A stretch of DNA of 64,000 nucleotides, taken from the NCBI GenBank assembly GCA_963576565.1, contig OY755047.1:27411171-27475170 (forward strand), in the 5' to 3' direction. Below, one piece after another: positions 2 to 63,034 of this stretch. The stretch comes from Aspidapion aeneum. Its lineage: Eukaryota > Arthropoda > Insecta > Coleoptera > Brentidae. Each line of letters opens with the position of its first letter. Position 1 is the stretch's first letter. The notes under the pieces were generated by a model that was not told the origin of the DNA, made no database searches, and saw only the letters and a list, made by a program, of their open reading frames with translations. The position numbers were made by a program, and so were the translations under genes.

Positions 2-727
2 TTCAACGAGATACATCTAGAGGTCTACAAGGAGTACCGGATCAGTTTGGCGTACGATTTGGCGCAGACTCGACAAAAGCACGCGTTCTCTGATCACTCG
101 GATTTGGTCGCTCGCAGAATGGGATTCATACCGCTTCCCCTGGGTGTGGTGATGAACAGAGTGTTTTTCTACTCAGTGTCTTTAGGAAATGCGTCTTCAA
201 TGGCTGTATTTACATTGGGATACCTCGGTTTGTGGTCCTACAAAATTTTAAATAGTATCTTGATTTTGGGGTGGGCGTGTAACTTTATAAAACAGCATAG
301 AACGGAAAAGACGTATCATTCAAACACAAACTCTCCAATATTGGAGAAAAGGTCAAAAGATATATCAACAAGTCCCGGGCATCCTCTTTTAAAAAATTCA
401 GTTTCTCAAAAAGTTTCCTTGGAAAATGGTTTTCCTCCTTTGGATGTTGAATTAGCTTTAAATTCACCACCCGGTGATATAAGTGCGGCAATTTTCGCGA
501 ATAGTACAGTAGATTTACAAAATACAACTTTAAACGAAGAACTTTTAAAAGTGAACGGTGAAGATATTCGGATAGAACAAGTAACTGAAGAAATCGTGAC
601 TCGAAGCGTGCCTGATATTAAAAAAGAAGTAGATGACGAACCAATAAAACCAGAGGTTGAAAACGTTTTAAAGAAATCGGAAAGTGAACCTAATTTAAAC
701 AGTTTAGATCAAAGTTTAAAAGACTAA
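2..727 (+). CDS. Tapt1: TAPT1 terminal coding exon (5' part of gene outside window)
   Basis: The frame is open from base 2 to TAA at 725-727 and encodes about 241 residues; translation must enter from an upstream exon, so no internal start is chosen. The N-terminal part (FNEIHLEVYKEYR..., then ARRMGFIPLPLGVVMNRV) matches my recollection of the C-terminal region of TAPT1 (transmembrane anterior posterior transformation 1 family, multi-pass ER/ciliary-base membrane proteins). Two hydrophobic stretches follow (about residues 45-65 and 70-90 of the exon). The rest is a polar, low-complexity cytoplasmic-type tail rich in Glu, Ser and Asn, ending in SLKD. In vertebrate TAPT1 this tail is also variable. 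No stop or frameshift is visible, in contrast to the four damaged copies just downstream. Identification is by family recall, not a search. Confidence 0.82.
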   Translation, partial: FNEIHLEVYKEYRISLAYDLAQTRQKHAFSDHSDLVARRMGFIPLPLGVVMNRVFFYSVSLGNASSMAVFTLGYLGLWSYKILNSILILGWACNFIKQHRTEKTYHSNTNSPILEKRSKDISTSPGHPLLKNSVSQKVSLENGFPPLDVELALNSPPGDISAAIFANSTVDLQNTTLNEELLKVNGEDIRIEQVTEEIVTRSVPDIKKEVDDEPIKPEVENVLKKSESEPNLNSLDQSLKD

Positions 728-817
728 AGGGTGTCTAATAATGTCTTCCGGATGAGACAAACGCATTGTGACAAAAAATGTGTAAAGGTGCCTTAATTAT
801 TTTTGTATATTTTGCAA

Positions 818-823
818 ATTAAA
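818..823 (+). promoter_or_regulatory. Probable TAPT1 polyadenylation signal (ATTAAA)
   Basis: ATTAAA, the commonest variant of the AATAAA signal, lies about 90 bases after the TAPT1 stop codon. The equivalent site in the second exon copy reads AATAAA (near 1717). The 3' UTR, roughly 728-900, is conserved among the tandem copies. Confidence 0.45.
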
Positions 824-904
824 ATGTAAATATAAATTGTTTTTTCTGTTGAAACTTTGGTTTGGTTCATAATATAATTTACGAAACTTAGTTTACGTCT
901 AACT

Positions 905-1800
905 AGGTGACCCAGCTACTGCAAATTTATTCACAAAAACATTCAGGATAATAGAAATGTATTTACTTGTAATAACGCGTTCTCTCTGATCAATTAGGTT
1001 TGGTAGCGCCCACAATGGGATTCATACCGCTTCCACTGGCTGCGGTGATGAACAGAGTGTTTTCCTACTCAGTGTCTCTAGGAAATGCGTCTTCAATGCA
1101 TGTATTTGCATTGGGATACCTCGGTTTGTGGTTATACAAAATTTTAAATAGTATCTTGATTTTGGGGTGGGCGTGTAACTTTATAAAACAGCATAAAATG
1201 GAGAAGACGTATCATTCAAACAAAAACTCTCCAATATTGAAGAGAAGGTCAAAAGATGTATACACAAGTCCCGGGCATCCTCTTTTAAAATATTCGGTTT
1301 CTTAAATGTTTGCTTGGAAAATGGGTTTCGTCCTTTGGATGTTGAATTAGCTTTAAATTCTCCACCCGGTGATATGTGCGGCAATTTTCGCGAACAGTAC
1401 AGTAGATTTAGAAAATACAACTTTAAACGAAGAACTTGTGTGTGAAGTGAACAACGAAGATATTCGGATAGAACCAGTAAGTAAAGGAATCGTGACTCGA
1501 AGCGTACCTGATATTAAAAAAGAAATAGATGACGAACTAATAAAACCGGAAGTTAAAAGCGTTTTAAAGAAATGAAATGAAAGCGAACCTAATTTAAACA
1601 GTTTAGATCAAAGTTTAAAAGACTAAAGGGTGTCTAATAATGTCTTCCGGATGAGACAAACGCATTGTGACAAAAATGTGTAAAGGTGCCTAAATTATTT
1701 TTGTATATTTTGCAAATAAAAATGTACATATATATTGTTTTTTCTGTTGAAAGGTTGGTTTTGTTCATAATATACTTTACGAAACTTAGTTTACCTCTAA
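905..1800 (+). pseudogene. Tandem copy 2 of TAPT1 last exon plus 3' UTR
   Basis: Homology to the functional exon starts around the ACGCGTTCTCT motif (974; equivalent to about 80 in the first copy). It runs through MGFIPLPLAAVMNRVF... to the SLKD end (about 1625) and on into the same 3' UTR. The copy is broken: a CAA codon has become TAA at 1303-1305, small indels occur around 1370, and there is a further stop near 1573. The 5' flank (about 905-973) is not the exon start but the repeated UTR-distal sequence. This indicates direct tandem duplication with a repeat unit of about 895 bp rather than retrocopying. Confidence 0.8.
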
Positions 1801-4515: not shown

Positions 4516-6780
4516 TGCTTGAATTTATGCTAATATGTATTTATAATTCCAATTTAGTAGCTTTTTTCTATGTGCGCCCGAGGGAAATGCGCCAAAATTT
4601 CCTGAAATTCGAGATGGGAAATCGATAGCCCGATAATAATTTCTGTTCCAAGAATTTCCTGCCGCAAGGGCTTTGGAGTATGATCTCGCTCTCTGAATTG
4701 ATATTGGGATCACTTCTGGTTAATTAATATAACCACGGTTGTATATATTCTATGTGAAGCGATGGAAGCTTGTGAAAGTGAGGAGCTTGAGATTCTGGTC
4801 ATATAGGTATTCAAATAGCATTCAAACGTATTATTCATGTTAGGAAACGGAGTATTGAACATGAACGGATTGTATTTGACTAAAGTGGCAAATCCAAAAT
4901 GGCCGATAGTTTTATATTTCGTTCTTTGGTTTCAAAATGTCAAGTGTTTGTCAACCGCTGTTTTTGTTTGTGTTTTTACCAGCGTTTTCTATTTAAATTT
5001 GGAATAAAATCTAACTGTCAAAAAGTTTTCACGACCTTTAAGCATAACTTTTTCCATTAGAGTAATGAAAGTCCAAGAATGTCTTTCTTTTTCAACCAAA
5101 ACAAGAACAACTGACAGTCTCCGCCATTTTGACAAAATGACCGCGATAAATCAAAGTATGGAAAGTTTCGTTAAGCTACCTAGAGGGTTGCCTACCAGTG
5201 CTTGTCTAATTCCGTCAAAATTTTAGCTTTGGTTCTGAAATCTAATCTCTAGGTGTTCTATAATCTCTACCAAAGCGATGAGTAACAGGCTGAATTTTCG
5301 GAAATGGCTCTGTCTTGTCGAGACGAAAAGAAAATATATTTTTTCCTGTGCAGACATTGTTGAAATGTGATTCCTAAAAGTGTGTGTGCACTTACAGTTG
5401 GTTCATCTGTTTTTCATAAACTAAAAAATAATTACCTTCTTTACTTTCCACACAATTTAACACACTTTAATTTATTTGAAGTATCGTAGCGAACCGTGTG
5501 CTAAATTATTCAAGACTTTATCCCGGCTATAAAAACAATAATGGCACTCATACATTACAATACAATACATTGATGCGATTTTGGAAGCCAGATCATACCG
5601 TTAAGAGGAATCTCAAATCTGCTTCTCCGAAATTGTTGCCACTTTTTTGTAATTTGAACTGCACAGTGAGCAGTGGTGGTCTTTGTGGGAGGCTGGGCGA
5701 TATTTTTTATGCTATTTTATCTTCTTATTTATAAAATATGTGGAAAATATCTGACCAAATCACAGGTTTGGGGGGCGCCCTAGATGAGTGAGCATAAAGA
5801 TATAAAATGAATTTTTTTTTGTGGGTTCTTGCATTAAAACGTTGGGCTGTGAAGAGGGTCGGCTCCTTACTGTTGCCAGTTCTACGTGTTAGTATGAAAT
5901 TCCAGGATGTAAAGAATTAATATATTTAGCAGGATTTTTAAAAATATATTTGCCCCGTCCTCTTTTTGGGAGGTCGATATCGGCATTAACATAAAGTAAG
6001 TATAACCTAACCATATTCAATTGATCGCAAGGGTATCCAAACCGGGCGTGCCTAGTCAGGTAAGGAACTTCGCGATCTAGTGACCTTAGGTCAGGTGACG
6101 ATCCTTTTGGGATCATATTGAAGGTTACACCGATTTCGATAATAATAAAAAAATAAACATTTTAAATTATCTTAACTAATTTACACAACAAGTTAAATAA
6201 AATCTGAAAAGAGACAATTAACTTTGTGTATTTTCATCCTGCATAGAATTTCTACTAAAAATAAAATGAACTTTAACTTTTAAGATCTAATTGAAAAAGT
6301 TATTCATTCAGTTCGGTGTGATTGGAGTTCTTTAAGTCGATGGAAGTACAACAGTTGTTTCTAAAATTTAGCAATTAATTTTGAAAGGATTTGGTACTCT
6401 TAACAAAGTTAGACTCTCCCATTTAAAGATGTTTTATAATATAATATAATGTTTAAATAGGCCCTTTTAGAAGTGGAAAAACAGTAGCATTTTCGTCCAA
6501 AAAAACGGTGAGAGGAGGGTTTTATCTTTTTCTGGTTCTTCTCCTTATTCTTCTTCTCTTGTGCTTGTGATTATCCATTCTTTCTGGGTATCCCAGCAAA
6601 ACTATTTTGAAATAACCTACTACTTTTTCTAGTTCAGTGTTCATCCGTGTATCCGTAATTTAATTTAGTCGTGTTTTAATTTAGTCGTGTTTTAATTTAG
6701 TCGTGTTTTAATTTTACTTTGAAATATTGCAGCTTGCTTGTCCATATACCAAGATATATAGCATTTTTTGAGAGCTTTTC
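4516..6780. other. Long AT-rich stretch, nothing recognised
   Basis: I see no coding similarity or terminal repeats between family B and the Jockey LINE, apart from the short tandem repeat at 6661-6715. Open frames here are short and without family features. A G/C-richer patch at about 6030-6120 is not identified. Confidence 0.5.
6661..6715. repeat. 16-bp tandem repeat, ~3.4 copies
   Basis: The unit TAATTTAGTCGTGTTT repeats three times exactly, then a partial unit follows. Confidence 0.9.
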
Positions 6781-8129
6781 AACAAAGTATCATTTTTTTT
6801 TATTTGTCAAACACACTGTGTTTATTGTATTACAATCTAGTCAGTAAGACTAATTAGCAATTTTGTTTTAACTTAATTTACTAGAAAAGTCAGATTTAAA
6901 CTCAGGGTTAACTCAACAGTTCTCCCCGCTTTGTTTGGTCTGTAACTCACAATTGTGTTGTGTTTATAGCATTATTTTGTTTTATGTAATTCACTTAGTT
7001 TACTAGCTCAAACGGCTTTTCTCTTTTTAGTCTTCGAACTAGCATAGTATTGGTTAGAAGCTGAATTGCTTCCACATTCACATGCCGATGGAGTCTATCT
7101 TCATTTTTGCGTACTTTTTTATACTCTGCTACAGTTTCGATTTTTAGATCTCGATGAAGGTCACTATTTCGAACGTACCAAGGTGCATTCACAATGTTTC
7201 TTAATACTTTATTTTGCAATCTCTGTAAAACTAGAATGTTACTCTCTTTAGCACAACCCCATAGTTGAATACCATATGTCCATACATGTTTTAGTATTTG
7301 TCTGTAAAGCAGTAACTTATTATGAATTGTTAAATTGTACTTCCTTCCAATTAGCCAGTTCATTTTTCTATACCTTATCTCAAGTTCTTCTTTTTTTTTC
7401 TTAACATGTGCTTTTCAGCGCAATTTGGCATCAAGCGCCATACCTAGATATTTTTCCTGATTTGAATATGGTACGGGAATGTTATTAATTGTTATTTGTA
7501 TGTGATTTATATTTTTGTTTGTAAAATCAACATGAATTGATTTGGTTGCATTTAATTTTATTTGACACTTTGTGGTCCAACTGTGAACTTCGGTGACTGC
7601 ATCCTGAAGTTTTTCTATGCATTTTTCAATAGATTTTTCTACCGTCAATAAACCAGTATCATCGGCAAATGTTGCTAAGTGACAATTTTTTGGCTTTGGG
7701 ATATCGCACGTGAATAATAAGTATAGATAAGGGCCTAGTACGCTACCCTGGGGCACGCCTGCTTGAATTTCTCTTAAATTTAAGTATGAGCCTTCCTGTT
7801 TTACTCTAAAATGACTATCAGATATGTATGATTCCAAAATATCCGAATATTGTTTTGGCAGAAACCGTTTTAGTTTAAAATTAAGGCATTTATGCCATAC
7901 TTTGTCAAATGCTTGTGCTACATCTAGAAAAACTGCAGAACAAACTTTTCCCTCTTCTAGTGCTTTTTCTATTATATTAGTAATTCTATGTACTTGATCT
8001 ATCGTGGAATGCTTGTCTCGAAAACCTAATTGATGAGATGGAATAAGTTCTTGTCTTTCTATGATGGGTTTTATTCTTTTAAGCAATAATTTTTTCTAGA
8101 GCTTGGATATAATTATAACAAAGTATCAT
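6781..8129 (-). mobile_element. 5'-truncated Jockey-type LINE with 13-bp target-site duplication
   Basis: The element body is about 6794-8116, read on the minus strand. It is flanked by perfect direct repeats AACAAAGTATCAT at 6781-6793 and 8117-8129. The 3' end is a short A run (poly-T on the + strand from 6794), so the insertion shows the signature of target-primed reverse transcription: poly(A), TSD and a 5' end lost inside the RT domain. The 3' UTR covers about 6800-6994. Size is about 1.3 kb against the 4-5 kb usual for complete Jockey elements. Confidence 0.92.
6995..8100 (-). pseudogene. Jockey-type reverse transcriptase, C-terminal half
   Basis: Conceptual translation from the 5' break contains the RT landmarks FLDVAQAFDKVWH, AGVPQGSVLGP and FADDTG (active-site Asp pair at 7658-7669). 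The Jockey C-terminal region (YGIQLWGCA, LQNKVLRNIVNAPWYVRN) follows, ending LVN at 6995. The frame is continuous except for one TGA at 7415-7417, where relatives have Trp (probable TGG to TGA change), and a TAG near 8095 at the 5' edge. The endonuclease, gag-like ORF1 and start of RT are missing. With only one internal nonsense change, it is a fairly young insertion. Confidence 0.9.
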
Positions 8130-12256: not shown

Positions 12257-12456
12257 ACCGGCATAACGATTCTACAAATACGCATTTCGACACTTTTTTA
12301 AATATTGTGATACATCCCAATATCCATTTATGCCACCCGTAATACAGACATTTGTAAAATGATGACGTAATCGGTGAGGGAAATATATAGTGAAGTAACA
12401 ACATTAATCAAAATCCTGAAAGGGTGATAAAATACTCAGGACCTAGAATAGTTATT

Positions 12457-12573
12457 TACCTAGCAAGTGCGGAAAGTGACCCTTTTCCGCACGAACGGCA
12501 GTTACACGAACGACGCGAAGCGGAGTTCGGAAAGGCCGTTAAGGGCGGAAAAGACACTTTCCGCGCGTGTTAG
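12457..12573. repeat. Left-end nested palindrome of the recombinase element
   Basis: Outer inverted repeat TACCTA...GCGGAAAGTG / CACTTTCCGC...TAGGTA. Inside are a hairpin at 12467-12492 (GTGCGGAAA / TTTCCGCAC), a nested stem AACGGC / GCCGTT (12494-12499 with 12535-12540) that encloses CGAAC / GTTCG, and a hairpin at 12545-12564 (GCGGAAA / TTTCCGC). It could equally be an independent ~117-bp miniature element of the same family sitting next to the autonomous one. Confidence 0.75.
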
Positions 12574-12721
12574 GTACAATATTTTTCCTACTTGCGTAAA
12601 AAACTTCTTCCTACATAATGTATTTTGTATTTTTATTGACAAATTATGTTTTCGTTTTAGTTTTAAAATTCAAATTCATTACTATAATTATTTTATTTTT
12701 ATTTGCTCTCATAAAATCACC

Positions 12722-12800
12722 AAAAAAGGTAGCGTGCGTAAAAAAAAAAATTTGCGCACGCCGTGCGCAAATTTTTTTTTTACGCACGCTACCTTTTTTT
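12722..12800. repeat. 79-bp near-perfect palindrome upstream of the recombinase gene
   Basis: Arms of about 39 bases (GGTAGCGTGCGTAA... and ...TTACGCACGCTACC) meet at TTTGCGCACG-C-CGTGCGCAAA around position 12761. The only imperfection I see is an 11-versus-10 difference in the A/T runs. It lies about 190 bases before the chosen start codon. Confidence 0.9.
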
Positions 12801-12990
12801 AAAATTTTGTAAAATAATTCCAAATTGATATTCAGGCACTCTATTATTTTTGTGTCATTTTGACATTAATTAGTGACAAGCTATTTTTTCGGATTGTGTT
12901 ATTGTTGTGACTATGGGATTAAAAATACAAACATGGCAGCAATTGTCATTTCAGCGTTATTTTCGGTTTATCTACAAAGTTTTCTTTAAA

Positions 12991-14184
12991 ATGGATTTCG
13001 ACGACAGCGATATTGAACTTCCAGACAGTATTTTGAATGACGCAGCATCGGCGAGGGAGGAATTAGTTCCAGAAAAGTCCCGTCCGAGATACGAAAAACA
13101 GTACCACGCTTTTGAAGATTGGTTAAAAGCAAAGAACACTTCATCGCTAAAAGAAGAGGTATTTTTGGCCTATTTTTCTTATTTGTCAAAGAGTTTCGTG
13201 CCTAGCACGTTATGGTCAAAATTTTCAATGCTTAAAATGTGTATAAGACTACGAAAAAATATAGATATTGGGCGATATTATAACTTAATATCATTTATTA
13301 AACGAAAAAATGTCGGTTTTAAACCAAAAAAGTCTCAAGTACTGCAAAAAAATGAGACCGATAAATTTTTGAAAGACGCTCCCGATGAGATTTATTTAAT
13401 TAACAAGGTGGCCACAATATTCGGCATTGCAGGAGCCTGCCGAAGAGCGGAGTTAGCGAATTTACAAGTATCCGACATCAAAGAGAAAGGCGACATCCTG
13501 GTGGTAACAATTTCAAACACTAAGAACCATACTTCAAGGAGTTTTGTGGTCTGCGATCCCAACAAAGACGATATAAGCTATATCAACATCTACAAAAAAT
13601 ACAAAAATTTGCGACCACCTGACACACCGCACCAACGGTTCTTTGTTTCCTACCATACCGGTAAATGCTCGAAGCAAGTGGTTGGTATAAACACATTTGG
13701 CAAGATCCCCGGTAACATCGCCGGGTTTCTTAAGCTGCCAAATCCGGAAACTTATACGGGCCATTGTTTCCGACGATTTTCTGCCACAATGTTGGCCAAT
13801 GCCGGAGCAAATATAACCAATTTCAAGCGACATGGTGGGTGGAAGAGTGCGTCAGTAGCCGAATCCTATGTGGAAGAATCCGAGGAAAACAAGAAAAAAA
13901 TTGCAACGCAAATTTTGCAGAAAAAAAGTGACACAAATCAGGAGACAGGAGAACGCCAACCATCCACCTCAGTACTACCCTCCACCTCAGAACTACCATC
14001 CACCATAGCACTTCGATCCACATCAGTGCAAAGAAGCACGAATGCAGAAGCAACGACAGTGTTTCCATCAATGACGACGACTAATACATCGATACAATCT
14101 GAAAACCTAACAAAAGTGGCGGCGTTAGCATTAACATTACAAAATACGACGCATTGCACGTTTAATTTTCACATTATGCGTTAA
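12991..14184 (+). CDS. Tyrosine recombinase (integrase family), intact
   Basis: 397 codons from ATG at 12991 (MDFDDSDIEL) to TAA at 14182-14184. The frame is open upstream to GTG 12907, with ATG at 12913, but those residues do not look like part of the protein. Residues about 25-115 form a SAM-like N-terminal domain (YEKQYHAFEDWL, FLAYFSYLSK). The catalytic domain shows the family residues in order: Arg151 in GACRRAEL with Glu154, Lys178 in the beta-hairpin (NTKNH), His258 and Arg261 in GHCFRRF, Trp284 in HGGWKS and nucleophile Tyr293 in AESYVEES, nine residues after Trp as expected. A Ser/Thr/Pro-rich tail with PSTS-type repeats spans about 323-370. Such enzymes cut and rejoin DNA through a 3'-phosphotyrosine link. 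All catalytic residues are present and no stop is seen, so the protein could be active. Nearest described class: Crypton-type recombinases; exact clade not determined. Confidence 0.88.
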   Translation: MDFDDSDIELPDSILNDAASAREELVPEKSRPRYEKQYHAFEDWLKAKNTSSLKEEVFLAYFSYLSKSFVPSTLWSKFSMLKMCIRLRKNIDIGRYYNLISFIKRKNVGFKPKKSQVLQKNETDKFLKDAPDEIYLINKVATIFGIAGACRRAELANLQVSDIKEKGDILVVTISNTKNHTSRSFVVCDPNKDDISYINIYKKYKNLRPPDTPHQRFFVSYHTGKCSKQVVGINTFGKIPGNIAGFLKLPNPETYTGHCFRRFSATMLANAGANITNFKRHGGWKSASVAESYVEESEENKKKIATQILQKKSDTNQETGERQPSTSVLPSTSELPSTIALRSTSVQRSTNAEATTVFPSMTTTNTSIQSENLTKVAALALTLQNTTHCTFNFHIMR

Positions 14185-14284
14185 ACTTTTTTTTCGAGTA
14201 GTTTTTAGTTTTTTTTCACTGTTTCCGTTACAAAAAAAAATATAAAACAAAAAAAAGTCTAAATTTACTTTAATATGCAAAGCA

Positions 14285-14373
14285 TGCGTAAAAGTATTTT
14301 TTACGCACGGCGTGCGGAAAGTTCAACTTTCCGCACGCAAATGCGTGCGTAAAAGTGCACTTTTACGCACGCA
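14285..14373. repeat. Right-end cluster of three palindromes
   Basis: 14285-14307 is TGCGTAAAA...TTTTTACGCA. 14310-14338 is GCGTGCGGAAAGTT-C-AACTTTCCGCACGC (perfect around one central base, described by its halves). 14342-14373 is a perfect 32-bp palindrome whose half is TGCGTGCGTAAAAGTG. All share the GCGTGCG core with the left-end palindromes. Confidence 0.92.
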
Positions 14374-14429
14374 AGTAGGGAAAATGTTTTTAAGAACTTT
14401 GATTGAGAAGAAATAGGCATCAAAGTGAG

Positions 14430-15559: not shown

Positions 15560-16160
15560 ATTTTTTAGCTTAAACTACTACTACACTATTATAGTAGTGT
15601 TAGCTCACACTACTACTATACTATAGTAGTGTGAGCTATGGTGAGAAAAAAAGTTGCTCTGATTTCAAAAAAATTTATAGGTATATATTTGCGTTTCGTT
15701 TCAGATGCTTTTGAAACTTTTTGTCGCGCCGTCTGTCTGTATGTCTGTCTGTAACGACCAACGCGCATAACTCAAAAACTACTTGTCCGATTTTAATAAA
15801 ATTGGTACTTAGGTTGGGTTTTGGCTCTAGATGGTCCTATTTAAAAATGAACAAAATCCATTAAACACAAGCCAATTAAAAGAGTGGGGGTACATTTCAA
15901 AAATTTAAGTTTATGTGAAAATATGGCCTGTGTGATATCAAACGAAAGGTAATTGAGTCTGGAGTTAAATAAAATACATTTTAGTTTAAAAAAAGGGTGG
16001 GGCTAGATTTCAAAAATTAGAGTTTAGGTCACAACATGGCTTGTGGTGTATCAAACGAAAGGTAATAATTGAGTCTGTTGTTGAATAAAATATATTTCAG
16101 TTTTTAGTTGTATTAGCTCACACGTACACTATAACTATAGTACCTATTGTGAGCTTAGGT
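15560..16160. repeat. Repeat bounded by GCTCACAC hairpins
   Basis: Two hairpins frame this stretch: 15600-15637 (TAGCTCACACTACTA... / ...TAGTAGTGTGAGCTA) and about 16110-16157 (TTAGCTCACAC...GTGAGCTTAG). Between them is AT-rich non-coding sequence with a GTCTGTCTGTATGTCTGTCT run (about 15729-15750) and CAAACGAAAGGTAAT repeated at about 15940 and 16050. This looks like a small non-autonomous element or a pair of them; I cannot assign a family. Confidence 0.45.
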
Positions 16161-60616: not shown

Positions 60617-62002
60617 TGTGTCCTAAAATTTTTTATTATTATTTAGTCGGTATGGAACGTTTTTCTACGTTGTCCGACGCCTATTCTTCACCTCCTTTGA
60701 TCCTGGCAATCAGATTTTTTTGACTCATTGATCTTTGGATTGACTGTTGCCATTCTAGTTTAGGACGCCCTCTTTTTCTGCGCCCTATTGGTTGCCATTC
60801 TAGGACCTGCTTCGGTAATCTTTCGTCGTTCATCCGTTGTACATGACCGTACCATATCAGTTGTCTTTTAGTGATGTCATCCGTTATGCATCCTTCGATT
60901 CCCATTCTTTCTTTTATGATCTCATTTCTTATGTGATCTGTTCTATATATTCTCATTGATCTTCTTATTGCATCCATTTCGACACACTCACTGGATTCGT
61001 TTCCAATACATAAGTACTGTGTCTTGTCCACGTTCACTGTTAGTCCCCACTTTCGGTATTATTCCATTAACTTTCTCATCATATACTCATATACTTGGTC
61101 GTCAGCAAACTGTAGTGTGTATATGGTAAATCGGTCGTTAAGTTGTATTCCCATGCCGTGCACTTTACGTTTCCAGTTTTTTAGAGCTACTGCGATATAT
61201 ATTTTAAAAAGAGTTGGAGAGATACAACACCCTTGTCTTAAGCCTTTTGTTACCAGGAATTCTTTTGAAAGTCGATTTCCAATTTTAGATTTTGACCCTT
61301 TGTATAGTTTTTTTATCGCTTTTATGTATGTATGATTGATATTAGTCTGCTCTAACACTGTCCATAGTTTTTCTACTGGAACGGTATCATATGCTTTTTG
61401 TAGGTCCACAAAGGTAACATGAGTCTCTATATTTCTGGCGCTCCTTTTCTCAATTACTTGTTTAAGACAAAAAACATTATCACTACAAGATCTTCCTGCA
61501 CGAAACCCACTTTGCTCTTCTTCTTCTTGTTAATGAAAATCATTCTCTATTAGATCTCTAAGAATCCTACCGTACAATCTACTTAGAGTACTGGTTACTG
61601 AAATTCCTCTGTAATTGTTGCAATCCAGCTTGTTTCCTTTTTTATGTATTGAGAATATGAATGCATTGATTGATAATATATGAGAGATTTTCGATCTCTG
61701 ATCCATATTTGAGCATTTCAGCATATATTCCTCCAGGTCCGCTAGCTTTTCCGGATTTAAGCTTTTTAATACTATTCTTTATCATTTCTTTTTCGATGAT
61801 TACTTCCTCTCCGTGTACTTCTATGTCTCTCCTCGGAGAGGCTGCCAGATATTCGGGTCTCGTTTCCTGCAGCAGTCCCTTGTAGTGTTCTGTCCATTGT
61901 TCTGGTTTGATAATCTGGATGTTTACTTTTTCTTTTGTTGGGTTTTTTACTGTAGAAATGAATTTCCATACTTCAGGACTCTGCCTACCTGTGTCCTAAA
62001 AT
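60617..62002 (-). mobile_element. 5'-truncated RTE-type LINE with 13-bp TSD
   Basis: TGTGTCCTAAAAT at 60617-60629 and 61990-62002 flanks 1360 bases. The 3' end (left side) has an AATAATAATAAAAA-like tail on the minus strand, as expected of RTE elements, which end in short repeats. The 5' end is cut within the linker upstream of RT. It lies inside the left arm of the foldback, giving a relative age: foldback first, LINE later. Confidence 0.93.
60681..61980 (-). pseudogene. RTE-type LINE reverse transcriptase
   Basis: Minus-strand pieces in order: RTMDRTLQGTAAGNETRISG-type linker (61910-61772); FSIHKKGNKLDCNNYRGISV and TSTLSRLYGRILRDLIEND (RT motif 1-2, about 61655-61535); MDLQKAYDTVPVEKLW, LRQGCCISPTLFKIY and LQFADDQV (61409-61075); then C-terminal DAIRRSMRIYRTDHIRNE, TKRQLIWYGHVQRMNDERLP, GRRKRGRPKLEWQQSI ending GGEE (60681). 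The RT active site reads FADD. Breaks: a stop near 61065 (after RKLME), a stop/frameshift near 61530-61410 and near 61730. Otherwise well preserved. Confidence 0.87.
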
Positions 62003-62574: not shown

Positions 62575-63034
62575 ACCCGAAAATAAACGGCAGTCGTCTG
62601 TTTGGGTGTTCCAAGAGGCAGAAAAGCATGTAGCCATAATTCCTCTGGAAGATGATAGGACCGTAACTGCCGATTGGTATATCACCATTTGTTTGCGGAA
62701 AGTTATCGCTGAACTTCGAAAAACGAACCCCGAAGGACGAATCTTCCTTCACCAAGACAATGCAAGTTCGCACAAAGCACAAAAAACCATTGAATCTTTA
62801 ATCCAACAAAACGTCGAACTGTTAGACCATCCTCCATACAGTCCCGAGCTATGTCCCTACGATTTCTATACTTTTCCGTTGGCAAAGATTTCAGTAGCCA
62901 GAGGAGGCATTCGACGCCTTTAAGAATGCAATTTTGACGGCACCAACAAACGAGTGGAATGACAGCTTTGACAACTGGTTTGAGCGCATGCAAAAGTGCA
63001 TTTATTTTCGTGGAGAATACTTCGAGAAACAATA
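62575..63034 (+). pseudogene. mariner transposase C-terminal remnant (D34D)
   Basis: Begins with ENKRQSS-like codons out of frame, then VFQEAEK joined to HVAIIPLEDDRTVTADWY, LRKVIAELRKTNPEGRIFLH, QDNASSHKAQKTIES, LLDHPPYSPELCPYDFYTFP. A frameshift near 62890-62925 precedes DSFDNWFERMQKCIYFRGEY FEKQ and TAA at 63032-63034. The two catalytic Asp of the C-terminal half are exactly 34 residues apart (QDN to YDF), the D34D spacing of mariner. About 24 codons between VFQEAEK and HVAIIPL are deleted, and the N-terminal two-thirds is absent. Confidence 0.88.

Follow-up and report, generated by a model that had tools for sequence, protein, structure and literature searches.

Locus and recombinase gene

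The stretch of the Aspidapion aeneum genome analyzed here (64,000 nucleotides of contig OY755047.1; hereafter, the window) carries a 1.93-kb element with a single tyrosine recombinase gene, a long hairpin module at its left end and palindromes on both sides of the gene (Table 1). Copy alignments and empty sites place the element at 12448–14381, slightly farther out at both ends than the 12457–14379 proposed in an earlier reading made without database searches (the sequence-only reading). It is bounded by A12447 and A14382, with no target duplication seen. The dispersed copies with different flanks, the empty sites and the single recombinase open reading frame (ORF) support its identification as a recombinase-only transposon.

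Table 1. Coordinates of the element and its parts in the window.
Feature	Position	Strand	Basis and remarks
Whole element	12448..14381	+	Copy alignment, termini, paralogous empty sites; 5'-ATAGTTATTTACC ... GCAAGTAGGGA in the window copy, mostly GCAAGTAGGAA elsewhere
Left terminus ATAGTTA, crossover side	12448..12454	+	Same in 40 of 41 left ends
Long hairpin module at left end	12448..12587	+	Single-strand fold, module alignment, model search
Palindrome 11-8-11, 2 mismatches, inside hairpin	12465..12494	.	Paired-arm pattern
Palindrome 11-6-11, 2 mismatches, inside hairpin	12541..12568	.	Paired-arm pattern
Inverted copy of right terminus (TTTTTCCTACTTGCGT region), directly 3' of hairpin	12583..12597	+	Inverted-repeat pair, complementarity test
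Palindrome 11-8-11	12732..12761	.	Paired-arm pattern; counterpart hit by the L017 insertion
Palindrome 11-7-11, one-base overlap with 12732-12761	12761..12789	.	Paired-arm pattern
Tyrosine recombinase, 397 amino acids, predicted Cre-like fold	12991..14184	+	ORF, Pfam, alignments, structure prediction
Palindrome 11-7-11	14282..14310	.	Paired-arm pattern; L055 counterpart interrupted
Perfect palindrome 11-7-11	14310..14338	.	Paired-arm pattern
Perfect palindrome 11-8-11, core of 32-bp palindrome 14342-14373	14343..14372	.	Paired-arm pattern
Right terminus ACGCAAGTAGGGA	14369..14381	+	Pairs with 12583-12597 once ends are joined (folded using the L002 copy)

The recombinase ORF (ATG at 12991, stop codon at 14182–14184) is intact over 397 codons and its product matches Phage_integrase (PF00589, E 1.9e-9). 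The full catalytic set noticed in the sequence-only reading (R151, K178, H258, R261, W284 and Y293) is indeed present; alignments of 30 and 61 sequences show the six residues as invariant or conserved to at least 90%, and none is touched by the 6 amino-acid differences that separate the window copy from the majority. This R-(K)-H-R-(H/W)-Y tyrosine recombinase is the only transposition protein of the element. The sole other coding-strand ORF of at least 100 amino acids (12467–12802) crosses the hairpin and palindromes. No reverse transcriptase ORF of at least 100 amino acids, the mark of DIRS and Ngaro elements that we looked for, lies within 12448–14381, and no DUF3504 match was obtained in 30 proteins at E up to 1 with a profile that may be too distant.

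Among the matches listed from protein searches (120 of 311 and 120 of 337), those named to species are all insects, mostly beetles but also moths, ants, wasps, a fungus gnat and a planthopper. A 30-row tree containing relatives only places three unnamed sequences beside the window protein, with one Exocentrus sequence in the next set of ten. Many relatives also have in common a C-terminal motif, (N)CTFN (window residues 389–393), which follows a variable, low-confidence stretch.

Copies, termini and insertion sites

The recombinase belongs to a dispersed repeat. In the genome searched (1.286 Gb, 149 contigs), the window protein gave at least 105 match rows, of which the last two are parts of one copy; the figure is a minimum, with 104 of 2841 first-look candidates scored. 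We read 48 loci around the best-scoring protein rows, a sample that favors intact copies because it was chosen in this way, and 8 further loci from a DNA search. The ORF has no stop or gap relative to the majority in half of the 48 copies (24) and diverges from it by 0.17–1.34% (median 0.59%). Nearly all of the distinct ORF variants are private to one copy (316 of 345) and none occurs in five or more copies. Synonymous changes make up 91 of 376, against ~28% expected without selection. The pattern suggests that one source gave rise to a recent burst and that the copies have since decayed almost neutrally, in agreement with the recent origin that the sequence-only reading had suggested. That reading had also linked the palindromes to the recombinase, and they do travel with it (2 to 7 paired-arm sites in each of the 34 copies with both ends); neither a recombinase without palindromes nor membership in a host gene family was seen in the loci read.

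Homology begins near 12447 in most of 27 other loci and ends near or just beyond 14383 in many, with differing flanks. A search of the 48 loci seeded with the termini found the left end in 40, the right end in 40 and both in 34; among loci without ends, which were partly inspected, homology begins inside the element in five. ATAGTTA is preceded by A in 38 left ends and by T in 2, and GGAAAA stands at 37 of 40 right ends. The constancy of the left end was counted from arms inside the termini, so that ATAGTTA itself was not in the query: 40 of the 41 left arms follow ATAGTTA and one (L026) follows TACGTTA. The bases after the right end, by contrast, vary among copies. Only two of 40 right arms are followed by ATAGT, in L015 because its target already reads ATAGT and in L044 because a related element abuts there. 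Insertion looks polar, with a constant left terminus and a variable right boundary. Separately, L023 and L026, which lie 0.47 Mb apart, do not share a left flank but are alike over approximately the first 33 bases on the right.

Clean paralogous empty sites were found and indicate conservative insertion, with no target duplication, at A^AANNNWTTTT. We aligned ten pairs of joined flanks with paralogous sequences. Two sites cleanly split A^AA (L020/L037, 93%; L015/L004, 84%), and two at ~80% (L032/L022 and L032/window) fit conservative insertion by eye with one extra indel each. A one-base offset remains in L006/L009 (75%), L040/L009 is ambiguous, and four pairs are undecided (L043/window, L037/L041, L032/L012 and L006/L024). 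No target duplication was seen by eye in the 34 copies having both ends. In a target profile built from 40 flanks on each side, A precedes ATAG and right positions 5–8 are rich in T (0.57–0.72). The pattern AAA-N2..5-TTT, picked after viewing this profile, is rebuilt in 21 of 34 copies when AA is restored between the flanks, compared to 769 of 3351 control positions.

A few insertions fell into palindromes of sibling elements. For example, the right flank of L017 starts in the inner palindrome of another copy, the counterpart of 12732–12761, and in L055 a related element interrupts the counterpart of palindrome 14282–14310. The left flanks of L041 and L037 end in CGTGCGTA, and the right junction of L029 reads GGAAAAAGCTATTTTCC. 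Whole half-sites stand beside junctions in 3 of 80 flanks versus 20 of 5213 bins (Fisher p 0.005); one of the three is a duplicated own end (L019), and insertions that split a half-site (L037 and L041) are missed by this count. Because the excess is modest, palindromes are occasional insertion targets rather than the rule. In L019 (4370–4470, element orientation), the right terminus and its flank are duplicated in tandem.

Palindrome arrays

Each of the seven palindromes in the element consists of two 11-bp arms (GCGTGCGNAAA) around 6–8 bp. The sequence GCGTGCGKAAARGT, with up to 2 mismatches, is matched 8 times in the window, where 0.67 matches are expected and 0 of 100 shuffles gave as many, and all 8 fall between 12481 and 14372. 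With a paired-arm pattern chosen after the palindromes had been seen (11-bp arms ending G[GTC]AAA, 6–8 bp spacer, up to 2 mismatches), we counted seven sites in the element and three in the other 61,950 bases of the window. The clustering described in the sequence-only reading is therefore real, but the palindromes lie inside the element instead of framing it, and two more sit in the left end. The right array (14270–14384) folds as single-stranded DNA at -42.6 kcal/mol (z -10.7).

The layout of the palindromes is that of a recombinase site and suggests that the element's recombinase may bind them. The loxP site of Cre has a 13-8-13 organization; here the spacers are 6–8 bp and the palindromes do not contain the crossover point. 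The recombinase itself, though predicted to fold like Cre, is only ~16% identical to it. The exact pattern had no match in either the viral_contigs or the genome_contigs collection, and neither yielded a confirmed DNA relative. A palindrome of the same pattern in an IMG/VR contig (L057:2114–2139) was taken as chance because the ORFs of that contig, read by eye, look like those of a bacterial phage.

A long hairpin conserved in shape

The left end folds into a long hairpin. As single-stranded DNA, 12447–12600 reaches -41.1 kcal/mol (z -6.8), a value matched by 0 of 200 shuffles. Its tip (12515–12521) reads GCGAAGC, a sequence known as an unusually stable DNA mini-hairpin; CCGAAGG occupies the same place in a second type of module (AAAC type). 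Modules of this type (L037, L056, L020 and L025) and another in L023 emerged from a model search with 164 matches from 53 sources, many of them one module found on either strand. Identity of the AAAC and L023 types to the others is 59–64%, compared to ~49% for shuffled letters, and ATAGT opens the window, L044, AAAC and L023 types alike. Seven of nine modules folded singly have z scores of -5.8 to -14.3.

Eight modules from this genome were aligned, giving 42 pairs with 91.5% of cells paired. The covariation score is 0.226, versus 0.141 for shuffles (sd 0.014; 0 of 500 as high), and drops to 0.03–0.06 on sliding; cells changed on both sides number 18 versus 7.3 (0 of 500 shuffles). The structure was derived from the alignment that was then scored, and the test favors it for that reason. 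Across families in this genome, hairpin shape is kept more than sequence.

The other families differ in size and content. L044 (~522–1296, minus strand) contains a 774-base relative with the left hairpin and right palindrome array that is too short for a recombinase; a 761-base query from it gave 105 genome match rows. The AAAC family (L037:838–1318; also L056, L020 and L025) spans ~480 bases with a ATAGTTATTTAAACAAC start, GTGTGCAAA half-sites and the same hairpin plan. The L023 hairpin (4535–4673) starts ATAGTACATTATATACCC and has a z score of -9.8; its right end was not found within the locus.

A role for the palindromes and hairpin at the level of RNA or chromatin, as a structured leader or insulator, rather than in recombination, is highly improbable. 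Structures do stand both upstream and downstream of the ORF, and there are seven sub-threshold Rfam matches, all over 12677–12838. Yet none of the seven reaches the gathering score, and the best (mir-4659, E 1.4e-6) scores 41 bits where 92 are required. Such a role also sits poorly with the retention of both structures in the L044 relative, which has no room for the recombinase, and with the occasional use of palindromes as insertion targets.

The right-left junction

An inverted copy of the right terminus follows the hairpin in three families (window, L044 and AAAC types). The best complementary runs have scores of 13 in the window type (L002 copy), 17 in the L044 type and 11 in the AAAC type, and were equalled by 0, 0 and 30 of 20,000 random window 20-mers, respectively. 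Because the inverted right terminus adjoins the hairpin, the hairpin becomes longer and spans the crossover when the ends are joined on one strand; the crossover falls between two stems of the fold. When 24 right-end bases were joined to 160 left-end bases, the three types folded at -58.1, -64.4 and -41.8 kcal/mol (z -10.4, -15.5 and -10.2). These folds gained 13.0, 18.1 and 10.6 kcal/mol relative to the left end by itself, whereas the best of 100 random 24-mers gained 3.7, 5.8 and 5.4. For the L044 and AAAC types, the right ends were taken from single copies. A plain terminal-inverted-repeat element is disfavored because the right end pairs best with an internal segment.

Two loci have a right end running directly into a related left end (L044, GGAAATAGTAG; L054, GGAAATAGTTA). 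These abutments have the sequence that a conservative model predicts for a right-left junction. Together, the folds, paired arms and junction fit lend support to the suggestion of the sequence-only reading that the ends may act as hairpins or paired recombinase sites.

Proposed mechanism

We propose, with about even confidence, that the window holds a recently multiplied Crypton-type element that recombines at a folded site on one strand, by analogy with integron attC. A circular intermediate has been proposed for fungal Cryptons; here, the recombinase would join the right end to the left end, giving a circle with GGAAATAGTTATTT at its junction. One junction strand would fold into an extended hairpin presenting two arms separated by a ~6-nt spacer. 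The enzyme would exchange only this folded strand with a double-stranded target and leave the joint to be resolved by replication, as happens with attC in integrons. The recombinase would bind the palindromes, which would double as targets, and clusters and tandems would therefore build up. The circle, the single strand, the one-strand exchange, the spacer length and a role of the recombinase for the other families are all steps that we infer. The constant left end (40 of 41) is compatible with recombination as a folded single strand only.

A substantial competitor, possible though on the doubtful side, is an ordinary Crypton that works on double-stranded DNA. A duplex circle would recombine with a duplex target by exchange of both strands, with the palindromes as dimer sites, the left hairpin as two facing sites, and polarity arising from biased repair of a heteroduplex spacer. 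The GCGTGCGNAAA arms around 6–8 bp suit a duplex recombinase site, the two left-end sites account by themselves for part of the stem, the terminal arms (TAGGAAA and TTTACCTA) are nearly symmetric by eye, and the predicted fold is Cre-like. However, this leaves unexplained both the covariation of inner-stem pairs outside the sites (columns 51–97, 53–95, 54–94 and 65–85) and the presence, in three families, of an inverted right terminus directly after the hairpin; for 40 of 41 left ends to be alike, the bias would also have to be strict.

Several observations weigh against the folded-strand proposal. The sequence data contain no circle, nick or activity, only the right-left abutments of L044 and L054. 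A dimer on double-stranded DNA needs the palindrome arms equally, and the fold alone does not tell which strand is used because both strands can fold. The predicted protein fold is closest to Cre, not to integron integrase, and the ~6-nt spacer is deduced from the arms. Two of the nine modules fold poorly (L041, z -0.7; L021, z -1.8), and weak model matches in L007 and L038 lack the hairpin plan. Of five covariation measures, two do not stand out from shuffles: pairs with two-sided change number 9 against 6.1 (29 of 500), and further pair types are likewise unremarkable (119 of 500). None of the other hairpin families is linked to a recombinase. Finally, the DNA comparison of hairpins covers one genome, with relatives in other insects represented as proteins only.

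Relation to known systems

The one-recombinase plan fits the Crypton-like affinity proposed in the sequence-only reading, and we set the element beside CryptonI by description rather than sequence comparison. As CryptonI is described in the portion of the source consulted (PMC3212892), the likenesses are a single tyrosine recombinase ORF with R-H-R-Y and no added C-terminal domain found, smaller relatives with no room for the gene, the lack of simple terminal inverted or long direct repeats, and named relatives that are all insects. The element differs from that description in the site arrays and long hairpin at its ends. Animal Cryptons have no terminal repeats according to the same portion, with none, direct or inverted, in 50 Rhodnius copies, and how they recognize their ends is open for that reason (PMC3212892). 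The term 'palindrom' is absent from that part of the text (PMC3212892). No publication combining a Crypton, a hairpin and a recombination site was found in the literature searched, with Repbase and subscription papers outside its scope.

The closest functional analogy may be integron attC. The integron integrase uses one folded attC strand, shape outweighs sequence, and replication resolves the joint, as the part of the source consulted describes (PMC2727003). The proposed likeness lies in a one-strand folded site, the precedence of shape over sequence, and exchange at the hairpin base by a central spacer (PMC2727003, in part). The modules here are indeed long imperfect hairpins with structure conserved over sequence, except in L041 and L021. 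The differences from attC in that account (PMC2727003) are the eukaryotic host, a site present only on joined ends, the element's own recombinase gene, and a use of one strand that we deduce. No integron integrase and attI with a cassette array appeared in this single-gene element of a 1.29-Gb genome, though no search was aimed at integrons. Integron-type R boxes match ACCTAAC/GTTAGGT; we did not use this motif because the AAAC-type family does not match it.

The bacterial elements SE-6945 and SE-6283 produce strand-biased circles, share four genes, two of them recombinases, and use few target sites, as reported in the part of the source consulted (PMC9345347). They resemble the window element in having a tyrosine recombinase and, on the mechanism proposed here, a 6-bp spacer and a strict order of strand exchange (PMC9345347, in part). 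Replicative copying of a one-strand circle without excision, as in these elements, with the hairpin as a replication or nicking signal, is an unlikely mode of movement here. Strand-biased circles with a 6-bp spacer are on record for SE-6945 in that account (PMC9345347), and the fixed left terminus and high copy number would both suit such copying. However, the left spacer of an SE donor shifts to the new right end at integration in these bacterial systems (PMC9345347, in part), whereas it stays left in our element. The anatomy and one-sided terminus of the window element fit the one-strand logic of integrons and SEs.

Two further observations concern the surroundings. A ~110-base repeat unit at 15600–16000 also occurs near L003, L005, L009–L011, L015, L016 and L020, among others. 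Fragments at 6995–8086, 60681–61409 and 62606–62923 look by eye like LINE-type reverse transcriptase and mariner-type transposase.

We advance a broader idea more tentatively, at somewhat less than even confidence: that a eukaryotic superfamily moves via an attC-like single-strand site assembled only when the ends join, with one-strand exchange finished by replication, and that its families keep the fold while swapping the sequence. The ends, target, predicted junction and recombinase-like sites are all available in one genome with many near-identical copies, and the mechanism is therefore directly testable. If the one-strand reading is right, a eukaryotic transposon, too, would be driven by recombination at a folded single strand, as known from integrons of bacteria.
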